Assembly: GCA_017529175.1 (NCBI GenBank)
Contig: JAFXNX010000240.1
Span: 1-5,554, forward strand
Direction: 5' to 3'
Length of the DNA stretch: 5,554 bases
From: Clostridia bacterium
GTDB lineage: Bacteria > Bacillota_A > Clostridia > Oscillospirales > CAG-272
In this document: piece by piece, positions 908-5,554 of the stretch
Position numbering within the stretch: the first letter of the stretch is position 1
Layout: every line of letters begins with the position of its first letter
Made by a program: the position numbers and the translations under genes
Notes under the pieces: generated by a model
Seen by the model: only the letters and a program-made list of their open reading frames with translations
Databases searched by the model: none
What the model was told of the DNA's origin: nothing

Positions 908-936
908 TTGACACCGGCTATCGTTTGTGATAGACT
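908..936 (+). promoter_or_regulatory. Sigma-70-type promoter of the tetR/dockerin unit
   Basis: A perfect TTGACA -35 box (908-913) is followed after exactly 17 bp by TAGACT (931-936; four of six matches to TATAAT). The -10 is preceded by TG at 928-929 in the extended -10 position. The predicted start of transcription is near 943, giving a leader of about 40 nt before the ATG at 983. The -10 lies inside the half-site array, so a bound repressor would block it. Confidence 0.75.
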
Positions 937-964
937 GTCTATCGCAAAGGATAGATTCTCTATC
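918..964. promoter_or_regulatory. TetR-type operator array: five alternating CTATC/GATAG half-sites
   Basis: Half-sites occur at 918-922 (CTATC), 929-933 (GATAG), 939-943 (CTATC), 950-954 (GATAG) and 960-964 (CTATC). Their starts are 11, 10, 11 and 10 bp apart, about one helical turn each. The central pair extends to a 25-bp palindrome over 924-948: TTTGTGATAGAC, a central T, then GTCTATCGCAAA, with a single mismatched pair. A second inverted pair, GATAGA/TCTATC around 957, lies in the leader. The array covers the promoter spacer, the -10 and the start region, directly upstream of a TetR-family gene, which is the usual arrangement for autorepression. The repeats are seen in the sequence; binding by the adjacent regulator is inferred. 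Confidence 0.8.
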
Positions 965-970
965 AAACGA

Positions 971-975
971 AAGGA
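971..975 (+). promoter_or_regulatory. Ribosome binding site that sets the TetR start
   Basis: AAGGA lies 7 bp before the ATG at 983. It decides against the in-frame upstream ATG at 713, which lies inside the repeat element and would start upstream of the promoter. Confidence 0.8.
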
Positions 976-1666: not shown

Positions 1667-4600
1667 ATGAAACACAAAAAACTCATCTCATTCCTGCTTG
1701 CGGTCGTGATGATCGTTCCGATGTTCGCGACCGTACTTCCTACGCCGGCGGCGGCAGAGACGCCGTTTCCCGGCATCACCCCCGGCATCAATATCGGCGA
1801 CTATTACAAATATATAATCAGAGTATATTGGAACGTGGTCAGCGCAAACGACCACGAGGATATCTATTTTACCGTCACGTGCGATACCTTAAGAACAGAT
1901 CCGGAGTCTTTAGAAGAAGCTTTTGCGAGCGGTGATGAAAGCCATAAACGTGAGAAAGCGGCGGATGAGAGCGGCGATCACACGTGGGCTTTCGCCAGCA
2001 ACACTTGTCCCAACAAACTGTACTATTGTACCTACGGTAAAGCTTTCAACCCTACGGAATGGTACATCACAAAGATCACGGTCACCCCTTTGAATCCCGT
2101 TGACGGCTACAGCTCGACCGAATACACTTATTGGGAAGGTAAGCTCGGTCAGCGTACCGCTCCCGTAGGCGGTATGCACAACTCCGACTCCATCTCGTTC
2201 AAAGTCGGAGAGGCGCCCGAATTCGCCGGCTGGACAGCCCTGAACGTCGGATCGAATTTTACTGAATATACAACCGACTGGACTTCGCCTCCGTACATAG
2301 AAGGGATCCTGCCGGTAAAAGGTCCGTCCACGATCGACGTACCTACAGACGGCAGCAGCGCTTCCTATGATTTTTCGCACGGACTTATCTACGACAATCT
2401 CGGCTCGGAATGGCCGGTGCAGGCGCTGGAACAAGTTGAGGTGAGAGAGTACGTCAGCGATTCCTACGTCGGAGGAAACTTCTTTTCACACACCGGCGTC
2501 AGTTTTTCAAACAATAATAATACAGTTACTCTAACTCCGGCGGCGAACGCCAAAAACGATTATAAGTTCCTGATAATATATAAAGAGAAGAAAACAAGAG
2601 ATTATTATGAGCACAAAGTCGTAACCGTCAAGACGTTCGACTATAACGTCACGTTCAAGGATCAAAACGGCGCGACACTCAAAACGGAAACTGTTGACTA
2701 CGGAAACAGCGCGACGCCTCCGGAGGTACCGGGCTACATTTACAAAAACGGACGCATCTATGCGTTCTCCGGATGGACGGGCGACGGATATACCGATATC
2801 ACAAGCGGAAATCAAGACCGCACAGTCACCGCCGCATATGATACCGACAAGGGCGTCCTTACCGGCAGCGGTACGAGTACCGATCCTTACAAGATCGACA
2901 GCGCCGCAGACTGGGAGCTGTTCGCCGCATATTGTGAAACCGACCTGACCGCGGGAAAGTACTTCAAGCTGACGAAAAATATCAGCACAAATATTATGGC
3001 CGGAAAGAGCGGTCACGATTTCCAGGGCGTATTTGACGGCGGACAATATAAGATAACGGTAAACTACGGTTCAAACAATTCACCGATCGCCGGGGATTAC
3101 ACGGCTCCGTTTTCATACGTCAAGAATGCCACGATCAAAGATCTGCACGTGGCGGGAGATATTTATACTTCGGGCAAGTATGCCGGCGGTATCATAGGCG
3201 GAGAATGGGAAACGGTAACTGTCGAGAACTGCCGTTCGAGCGTCAGCATCCATTCGTCTACCGTCGGCGACGGAACGCACGGAGGAATTATAGGGCTGAG
3301 CGCCAAGAACGGTAATCTTACTGTAAGAGGATGCGTGTTTGACGGCGAACTGCTCGGAGAAAACACAACGAACTGCGGCGGCTTCATCGGCTACAGAAGC
3401 TCTACCGCAGCGATCTATGACAGTATTTTCGATCCGTCGAGTGTGACGATAAGTGACGAGGGCAGCGCAATGTTCGCGCGCAACAAGATCGACGCGACGA
3501 ACAGCTATTACCTCTACAGATTCGGTACCGATTCCGGTAACCAGTGGAACTGGGGGAACACCGTTGGCGCAGGAAATAACGTTACGGTCGGTTACGACGG
3601 CCCCTATACGAATTACAGCGTCAGCTGCATCCGCGCTTACTCCACGGGCATAAAGTACAAAAACACTTTGTACGCGGGAAGCAATCAGACCGTCTCGCTC
3701 TCTCTCGGTCACACGACGCCCACGGGCTATACCTTCAGTGGCTACAGCGCAAGCTCCGGTTCGCTCTCAGGCAACAGTCTCACCATGCCGTCAAACGACT
3801 CAGACGTCGTGATAAACGCGGTGAACGAGATAAACAAATACACCGTGACCTGGAAGAACTATGACGGAACGACGCTCGAAACGGACAACGACGTTCCGTA
3901 CGGCACAACTCCGACCTACAACGGAGCGACGCCGAACAAAGCTCCCGACAAGGACTATACCTACACCTTTGCCGGATGGTCTCCGTCCGTTTCATCGGTC
4001 AAAGGAAATAAGACCTACACCGCAACGTATAATTCGGCGTCTCAGGTATATACGCTGACCTCCTGGAGCTGGGACGGCTTCGCTTCCGCGACAGCGCTGT
4101 TCACCGCAGGTGAAGGCGGCTTTACAAAAGAGATCACCGCAAGCGTCGGCGAACCTACCGTCGTGTCTGCCGGATGCACAGAGGAAGGCAGTAAGACTTA
4201 CACGGCGACGGTCGTATATGACGGAGCAACGTATACCGACGTGAAAGTACAGACTCTCGCGCCCGTCGGGCACGACTTCGGAGAGTGGACACTTACGACG
4301 GAGCCCGGCTGCACGTCGTCGGGAGTTGAAACGAGATACTGCTCGAGATGCGATGAGACGGAAACGAGAGATGTAGATCCGCTCGGTCACGATTTTGTCA
4401 GCGCCGGCGCAAAAGCGGCGACTTGCACGGAAGAAGGTCATTTATCCTATTATATCTGCGCACGATGCGACGTCATTCCGTCGAGTATCAGCGTTACGTC
4501 CCATGCGGATTACCTAACTATTCTGGAAGACACGGAAGGTGCAATAAAGACAAGTGTCGCTGTTGTCGACGGACAAGTCGTATTTCCCGGAAGTACCGGT

Positions 4601-5296
4601 ACAGGCACGACAAATCCCGGCTCGGGGATAACGCCCTCCAATCCGGGGATCACACCGGTCGATCCCGGGGACGACCCCGCGTCTACCGATTTCAGTGCGC
4701 AGTATCTGACAAACGTGGTTGCGATCCTCGCAAGATACCTCACAGAGGATATCGAGGAGGGCTTTACCGCCGAAAGCGTCACTACGGAAGAACTTAACTC
4801 CGCGCTAAATACTATAGGCGACGTCATATCGGAAAAAATCGAGCTGCCGTTTTCGATCTTGAAACTCATAATCGATATGTCCACACTATATTATGCAAAC
4901 GTCGAAATTCAGACCACGGAAGTTCCGAATCCGATCATTGATATCCCGGCGAAGGGACATAATCTCGTACACTTCGAAGCGAAGGCCGCTACCGCGTCCG
5001 AGTGCGGCAACGTCGAATACTGGCGTTGTTCCGCCTGCGGTAAATACTATTCGGACGAAAACGGCGAATTCGAAATCACGGAAGACGATACGGTCGTTCC
5101 GATGACGGGCTCCGTTATCACGGGAGACGTCGACGGGGACGGTGTCGTCACTCTTAAGGATATAGCGAAAATCAAAGAGTATATTGCGGGTATTGCGTCT
5201 ATTTCGGAAATAGTTTTCGCAAATACCGATATCGACGGCGACGGAGCAATCGGATTGATGGACATCAGCGCTCTCAAATCGCTGATCGCCGGCTGA
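1667..5296 (+). CDS. Large secreted multidomain surface protein with C-terminal type I dockerin
   Basis: The protein has 1209 residues. Residues 1-30 are a signal peptide: a lysine-rich start, a hydrophobic core, and likely cleavage after PAAA. Residues 31-324 match no family I recognise; 210-324 look like an Ig-like beta domain. Then follow an InlB/Flg_new-type repeat (325-391), a GLUG beta-helix-like region (400-636), two more InlB-like units (637-723, 725-788), a YTATV/YTD module (789-867), CxxC modules at 868-935, a Gly/Pro/Thr linker (975-1004), a mostly helical block (about 1005-1086), a last CxxC module (1097-1148) and a dockerin (1151-1209). There is no LPXTG motif, SLH domain or membrane anchor, so attachment would be through a cohesin. 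No catalytic domain was recognised; an adhesin, substrate-binding or scaffold-associated role is inferred. It is probably co-transcribed with the TetR gene. Confidence 0.9.
2639..2839 (+). other. Encoded InlB/Flg_new-type repeat (residues 325-391)
   Basis: The segment has the family plan: [21 protein letters not shown], then a proline-rich turn, then FSGWTGD, then TVTAAY. These small beta-grasp-like repeats are common in surface proteins of clostridia and in Listeria internalins. Confidence 0.8.
2864..3574 (+). other. Encoded GLUG-motif, beta-helix-like region (residues 400-636)
   Basis: It opens with [17 protein letters not shown], the entry motif usual before GLUG-type right-handed helices in secreted clostridial proteins. 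GLUG-like motifs GGIIGG, GGIIGL and GGFIGY start at residues 507, 539 and 571, exactly 32 residues apart. Each is followed by a beta strand with a conserved cysteine or aspartate (VENC, VRGC, IYDS). The fold is inferred from the motifs. Confidence 0.72.
3575..4030 (+). other. Two further encoded InlB-like units (residues 637-723 and 725-788)
   Basis: The first unit is divergent but keeps [12 protein letters not shown] and a [13 protein letters not shown] ending. The second is canonical: [22 protein letters not shown], then [10 protein letters not shown], then KTYTATY. Confidence 0.72.
4268..4471 (+). other. Encoded extracellular CxxC modules 1 and 2 (residues 868-935)
   Basis: Module 1 runs from GHDFGEW with Cys882, Cys892 and Cys895 (YCSRC). 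Module 2 runs from GHDF at 907 with Cys920, Cys931 and Cys934 (YICARC). They match the GHD-x-n-C-T-x-x-G-x-n-C-x-x-C modules seen in many secreted clostridial proteins. Module 2 stops right after its CxxC, without the usual [13 protein letters not shown] second half. Confidence 0.65.
4589..4678 (+). other. Encoded Gly/Pro/Thr-rich linker (residues 975-1004)
   Basis: A low-complexity stretch with repeated NPG, GITP and DPG units separates the repeat-rich front of the protein from the helical block and the dockerin. Such linkers give flexible spacing in cellulosome-type proteins. Confidence 0.75.
5117..5293 (+). other. Encoded type I dockerin domain (residues 1151-1209)
   Basis: Two calcium-binding loops are visible: [12 protein letters not shown] (1154-1165) and [12 protein letters not shown] (1188-1199). 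Each has Asp at loop positions 1, 3, 5 and 12 and is followed by an F-hand helix ([20 protein letters not shown]). The loop starts are 34 residues apart. Both calcium sites look intact. At the cohesin-specificity positions 10 and 11 the residues are Leu-Lys and Leu-Met. The domain ends the protein, as is usual. Confidence 0.92.
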
Positions 5297-5334: not shown

Positions 5335-5554
5335 GGGGCTGTCGCACTTAGCGCAGATCGAAAAAGCGACGACAAGAAATAAGCCAAAACTCACCAAAAT
5401 CCGTAGTTTTCATCTTTAATTAGGTGAAAATCCTACGGATTTTTCCATTTATTCGCTTTTTCTATCGCCGTTTTTGCCCCTCGACGTAGCTGGGAACCCC
5501 AAAAATCTAACGATTCCCCCGGACCCCTGCCCAATACGCCTCACGGGGCAAAGA
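5335..5554 (+). mobile_element. MITE-like structured repeat, copy 2 (cut by window end)
   Basis: It starts GGGGCTGTCGCACTTAGCGCAG, 38 bp after the dockerin protein stop, in the same orientation as copy 1, and aligns with copy 1 bases 573-793. The terminator arms and the core are conserved; the region between the left end and the terminator is diverged. About 33 bases, including the right inverted repeat, should lie beyond the window. Confidence 0.8.
5396..5444. terminator. Bidirectional Rho-independent terminator hairpin in repeat copy 2
   Basis: The same stem as in copy 1 (ATCCGTAG plus TTTTCATC against GGTGAAAA plus TCCTACGGAT, then a T-run), with an 8-nt loop TTTAATTA instead of TTAAGCA. 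No other hairpin is seen between the dockerin protein stop at 5296 and here, so this is the likely terminator of the operon, leaving a 3' untranslated region of about 150 nt. Confidence 0.8.

Follow-up and report, generated by a model that had tools for sequence, protein, structure and literature searches.

A TetR-family regulator gene of a Clostridia bacterium with two predicted 15-bp operators at its own promoter

Described TetR-family operators and the regulator of this locus

Several TetR-family regulators are described as working from two operators or with more than one dimer, among them TetR (PMC3511530), QacR (PMC4482099), FadR of Sulfolobus (PMC6449355) and DarR (PMC10636190). In particular, the TetR dimer of Tn10 is described as binding two 15-bp palindromic operators beside its gene, with tetR and tetA divergent and the operators lying between them (PMC3511530). 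QacR (PMC4482099) and DarR (PMC10636190) are described as placing two dimers on one operator, where they share palindromes that overlap within 28 bp (QacR) or 20 bp (DarR). EthR, a TetR-family repressor of Mycobacterium tuberculosis, is described with motifs in multiple copies that are larger and are not classical palindromes (PMC4482099), and it has been reported to load several dimers (octamers) cooperatively on its operator. The locus analyzed here lies in a 5,554-nucleotide stretch of DNA from a Clostridia bacterium (below, the window). Given the two-operator and multi-dimer precedents within the TetR family it belongs to a known kind, and it is ordinary in design for this sort of regulator.

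The regulator gene (positions 983–1615, + strand) encodes a protein of 210 amino acids, its ATG at 983 having been chosen from the starts of homologs (the mechanical open reading frame begins upstream, at 713). The protein carries the helix-turn-helix domain of the TetR family (Pfam TetR_N, PF00440; E = 1.9e-14, 53.6 bits with a cut-off of 24), and AlphaFold2 predicts the fold of this family for it, all-helical with nine helices (mean pLDDT 85). A Foldseek search with the model gave 399 matches at E up to 0.001, and the 50 matches listed bear the names of transcriptional regulators, most of them of the TetR family, at TM-scores (query) of 0.49–0.74. Fatty-acid and steroid regulators are among these 50 nearest listed folds, as are EthR2 and DarR; at identities of 12–21% they are too distant for naming a ligand. 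Similarly, 23 NCBIfam models fell below E 0.01 and none reached its own cut-off, so they point to no ligand class. The regulator has 1,223 homologs in all, and 24 of the 120 listed were aligned. No relatives of the protein were found in viral contigs, and among the titles and abstract beginnings of the literature matches listed we recognized no description of this clade, its operator or its exported neighbors.

Like TetR of Tn10, the window regulator is a TetR_N protein with two putative 15-bp palindromic operators by its own gene. The letters CTATC and GATAG are common to the two systems and are differently arranged: tetO is CTATC-N3-GATAG, an outward pair with a 3-bp centre, whereas the window pair is inward, GATAG-N5-CTATC; in the window, inward pairs have a 5-bp centre and outward pairs a 6-bp one. 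The neighboring genes differ as well: in the window the gene of an exported dockerin protein is read the same way as the regulator, and in Tn10 tetA is divergent. With EthR the locus shares the TetR-family type of repressor and the multiple motif copies, but each window site is a plain 15-bp palindrome; an EthR-type oligomer would find two complete sites and a single half-site in this sequence. As in QacR and DarR, there is predicted room for two dimers in one operator region, but the 15-bp operators of the window do not overlap, and the interleaved half-sites of the QacR/DarR type are not seen, the N5 operators being separate and the corresponding outward pair lacking in relatives (below).

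The half-site array and the promoter

Five exact 5-mers on the + strand, CTATC at 918–922, GATAG at 929–933, CTATC at 939–943, GATAG at 950–954 and CTATC at 960–964, make up the alternating array that the preliminary description had reported, and its starts at 918, 929, 939, 950 and 960, with steps of 11, 10, 11 and 10 bp, were borne out. Elsewhere in the window these words occur four times, at 42, 701, 1099 and 5462. The array exceeds chance by far. When any 5-mer alternating with its own reverse complement at 10 or 11 bp is counted as a chain, the real chain has five members, and the longest found in 300 dinucleotide shuffles of the window has three (7 of 300); for the 152-bp region 831–982 the maximum in 5,000 shuffles is also three (reached by five). 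Tandem Repeats Finder reported no array at 880–1000 and the 21-bp units of O1 and O2 (below) agree by eye at 14 of 21 positions, so a recent duplication of these units is unsupported.

The promoter-like sequence consists of a perfect −35 box, TTGACA (908–913, + strand), a 17-bp spacer and a −10 box, TAGACT (931–936, + strand), which is preceded by TG. Together the boxes match the promoter pattern at 10 of 12 positions; shuffles of the upstream region hold 0.4 such sites on average, so the match at 908–936 is not strong by itself. The −10 box lies inside the putative operator O1 (GATAGACTGTCTATC, 929–943, + strand), a perfect 7+1+7 palindrome that scores 18.6 bits on the family matrix. The second, O2 (GATAGATTCTCTATC, 950–964, + strand; 17.4 bits), sits 21 bp downstream in the predicted 5′ untranslated leader, and the two 15-bp N5 operators do not overlap. 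As had been proposed, the −10 box lies under the array, and so by inference does the start site, placed at about 943–945. The sequence AAAGGA at 969–974 (+ strand) is a likely ribosome-binding site. Palindromic operators at a regulator’s own promoter are expected of the TetR family, and the sequence has them in O1 and O2, which are kept in relatives.

Because the halves of O2 can pair into a stem of 6 bp closed by a 3-base loop, immediately upstream of the likely ribosome-binding site, a role in the RNA was also considered, in which a leader hairpin would control tetR translation. This we regard as extremely improbable: the leader (944–1000) folds no better than shuffled sequence (z = −0.41; 57 of 200 as good), no Rfam family was matched at gathering score, and the copy most often kept in relatives is the one on the −10 box, which would be mostly untranscribed.

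Operator geometry, number and spacing in relatives

For comparison we searched the 130 bases upstream of the start codon in the best 80 of 119 genome-contig loci, whose regulators are 43–54% identical to that of the window; relatives at 62–89% identity (P0002–P0014) lay outside this DNA comparison, and the 80 include near-identical loci (for example L002/L003, L047/L051/L054 and L029/L035). The inward pair GATAR-N5-YTATC is present at 27 sites in 24 of the 80 loci, compared with 0.04 expected from letter shuffles, and no other centre length between 0 and 24 has more than four sites. With four-base halves in identical geometry (GATA-N7-TATC) there are 35 sites in 31 loci. The outward pair YTATC-N6-GATAR was found in none of the 80 upstream regions, and the tet-like YTATC-N3-GATAR in two (0.1 expected) as against the 24 with the inward N5 pair. 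The operator of the clade thus appears to be the 15-bp palindrome GATAR-N5-YTATC, mostly placed on the −10 box, and the enrichment of this pair together with the absence of the outward one indicates that the window operators are 929–943 and 950–964. The 16-bp outward pairs of the window are, on this comparison, probably merely the intervening sequence between operators.

These counts bear on the earlier suggestions that every neighboring pair is usable, giving four overlapping palindromes, and that dimers compete over shared half-sites: they point to two operators, and the relatives give no sign of such competition. A model in which several dimers load the four overlapping palindromes through shared half-sites, using the inward 15-bp and the outward 16-bp pairs alike, does account for the alternation of five half-sites at 10–11 bp, and DarR, a TetR-family protein, is described as using overlapping palindromes (PMC10636190). 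It is nevertheless very unlikely here, since the outward pair is missing from all 80 relatives where the inward one is strongly enriched, and since the linkers differ among the relatives’ tandem operators, so that the outward distance is not kept.

The position of the operator was read from best palindromes picked blind to the promoter. In 34 of the 80 relatives TTGACA, with one mismatch allowed, lies exactly 21 bp upstream of the pick, as it does for O1 in the window; at other offsets from 6 to 59 it is never seen in more than four loci, and shuffles give 0.3 of 80. This fixed offset suggests that the −10 box is built into the operator. The claim rests on the promoter-blind picks because the family-matrix site rule itself demanded a −35 box; that rule was passed by 45 of 81 rows (window included), and the 45 primary operators score between −8.5 and 19.3 bits, three of them below 1 bit. 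A relaxed rule, composed after the upstream sequences had been viewed, finds at least one operator in 49 of the 80 loci, against 11.9 of 80 on average in shuffled sequence. It leaves 31 loci without an operator, a share that may truly be larger given how often the rule matches shuffles.

The half-site itself may follow the protein. Of the 13 loci whose recognition helix reads GT[MIT]T, 8 have G as the second base, compared with 3 of the 30 whose helix reads otherwise (Fisher p = 0.001, with no correction for relatedness). The comparison drew on 43 of the 81 rows, window included; 36 rows had failed the filters and two with C or T at this base were excluded. The difference indirectly suggests that the second base follows the recognition helix; the rule is not strict, as 5 of the 13 GT[MIT]T loci carry A. 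The condition that the preliminary description had set for its own refutation, a lack of conservation upstream of close orthologs, gives a split outcome: the half-site and the N5 spacing are kept and the 10/11 alternation is not, the closest DNA compared coming from relatives at 54% identity.

By the relaxed rule two to four operators are present in 13 of the 80 loci, spaced by 17 bp (five loci), 18, 20, 23, 25 and 27 bp, where shuffles give about 0.02 operator pairs per distance; candidate second sites were seen in L050 and L065. Among 12 further loci, two operators were found in L088 (27 bp) and L107 (17 bp) and none by the relaxed rule in eight, and several of the later loci duplicate earlier ones (L087, L092, L094, L095, L103, L109 and others). 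L088 (54% identical) thus has two operators, and L004 (54%) and L001 (53%) have one each. Since these spacings amount to anything from 1.6 to 2.6 helical turns, the family as a whole does not share the window’s 21-bp phasing, and the helical phasing first ascribed to the array is not conserved. Such variable spacing also makes a fixed contact between dimers less likely; DNA-mediated help between them is possible.

A strict pattern, two GATAG-N5-CTATC at most 30 bp apart, was searched in genomes bearing relatives (50 of the 80 loci submitted) and occurs in 6 of 48, the reversed-pattern control in 0 of 48. The gene beside each of the six sites encodes a TetR_N domain. Three of the sites (L021, L052 and L072) were already in the 80-locus set; the new ones are L084 and L085, nearly identical to each other in sequence, and L086. 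In these three the tandem operators lie between divergent genes, one for the TetR_N protein and one for a conserved protein of ~480 amino acids with MDRAK near its start, possibly a different class of target. Among 391 genomes from the class of G002 the strict pattern is present in two, G002 and G021, both already among the six. The tandem operator pattern also matches seven viral stretches, beside which no TetR-like frame was seen by eye in two frames per place and strand (one place per strand in L097). We also note that in the L097 viral contig a 21-bp unit resembling GATAGCAAGGCTATCCCACTT is repeated many times in tandem, with no TetR-like frame seen at one place per strand.

Under the relaxed rule, two loci carry longer series over the regulator promoter: L016 (upstream of 3001) has four operator-like sites and L025 (upstream of 2995) three, at exactly 17-bp intervals in both cases, and judged by these sites both resemble a true array more than the window does. 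Such regular series, the reported cooperative octamerization of EthR on its operator, and the distance of exactly 21 bp from the 918 half-site to the right half of O1 are consistent with a cooperative oligomer in the window, with a third dimer or half-dimer on the 918 half-site making an EthR-like multi-step switch. We think this unlikely. The lone CTATC at 918–922 (+ strand) lies in the promoter spacer with no partner at operator distance; the would-be partner, TTGAC at 908–912, belongs to the −35 box and matches GATAG at one of five bases, and the 15-mer 908–922 scores −6.3 bits on the family matrix. Among the relatives with a promoter operator, only one other locus has such an extra half-site, a CTATC-like word 10–12 bp before the operator. 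The lone half-site is best explained as chance or as a vestigial half-site.

The downstream gene and proposed regulation

The next gene (1667–5296, + strand) begins 51 bases after tetR in the same direction and encodes a 1,209-amino acid protein with a C-terminal dockerin domain (Dockerin_1, E = 1.7e-9) and, by eye, a signal-peptide-like N-terminus. There is no terminator-like site in 1500–1750, and there is a weak promoter-like site at 1622–1650 (9 of 12 matches; three such sites over both strands compared with 0.3 expected) that could drive the dockerin gene separately; co-transcription with tetR is therefore likely and not certain. The unit is bracketed by a pair of MITE-like elements. One, of 264 bp (568–831), precedes tetR and has 22-bp terminal inverted repeats (GGGGCTGTCGCA) that are 95% complementary; the other (5335–5554) follows the dockerin gene, is 88% identical and is cut by the window end. 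BLASTN at E 1e-3 found no copy of the element among the fetched loci, and a 30-base piece of it has no exact match in the viral contigs.

Exported proteins are frequent in this position. Among non-overlapping open reading frames of at least 300 amino acids on either strand, a home-made export rule is passed by 37 of the 55 that begin no more than 600 nt behind the regulator, compared with 27 of 102 others at the same loci (Fisher p = 1e-6); the rule is crude and also passes a gene that is sugar-dehydrogenase-like by eye (L034). It picked 36 of 75 downstream genes of relatives, and the 10 of these that were scanned gave InlB-type B repeats, beta-helix repeats and F5/8 type C, Cthe_2159, FG-GAP and MBG domains. 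On these sequences, regulators of this clade tend to be followed by genes for large exported proteins, which are often rich in repeats.

In line with the preliminary description, the tetR promoter looks to be overlaid by an operator region that holds more than one site for a regulator, and autorepression is the natural reading of operators so placed. The putative sites, their overlap with promoter-like sequence, the conservation of the 15-bp operator and its multi-copy recurrence by this regulator family are read directly from the sequences; for binding, the sign of regulation, a ligand, cooperativity and co-transcription we infer the following. A TetR dimer made from 983–1615 would recognize the palindrome GATAG-N5-CTATC. 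Bound at O1 (929–943), it would cover the −10 element and block RNA polymerase, and a second dimer on O2 (950–964), just past the start site and two helical turns on, would give a stronger block or a higher occupancy. Ligand binding to the regulator would then release repression, so that tetR would be expressed, together with the exported dockerin gene if the two share a transcript. We consider it highly probable that this is a two-site autorepression operator, in which O1 blocks the promoter and O2 adds strength, acting on tetR and, given co-transcription, on the dockerin gene.

A more speculative idea, rather improbable in our judgment, is that local duplication changes how many operators a locus has (one to four) and how far apart they lie, and that both act as an evolvable gain control, by which paralogous regulators, each with its own large exported surface protein, would become separately tuned and possibly bistable surface-display switches in gut and rumen Clostridia. 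For a large TetR clade that has no NCBIfam name, the analysis provides a candidate operator, GATAR-N5-YTATC located on the −10 box. The link of this clade to large exported proteins, whether repeat-rich or with dockerin domains, may make its regulons predictable in rumen and gut genomes, and the range of one to four operators that occurs naturally in several helical phases could be used to test operator number against phase in setting the steepness of autorepression.
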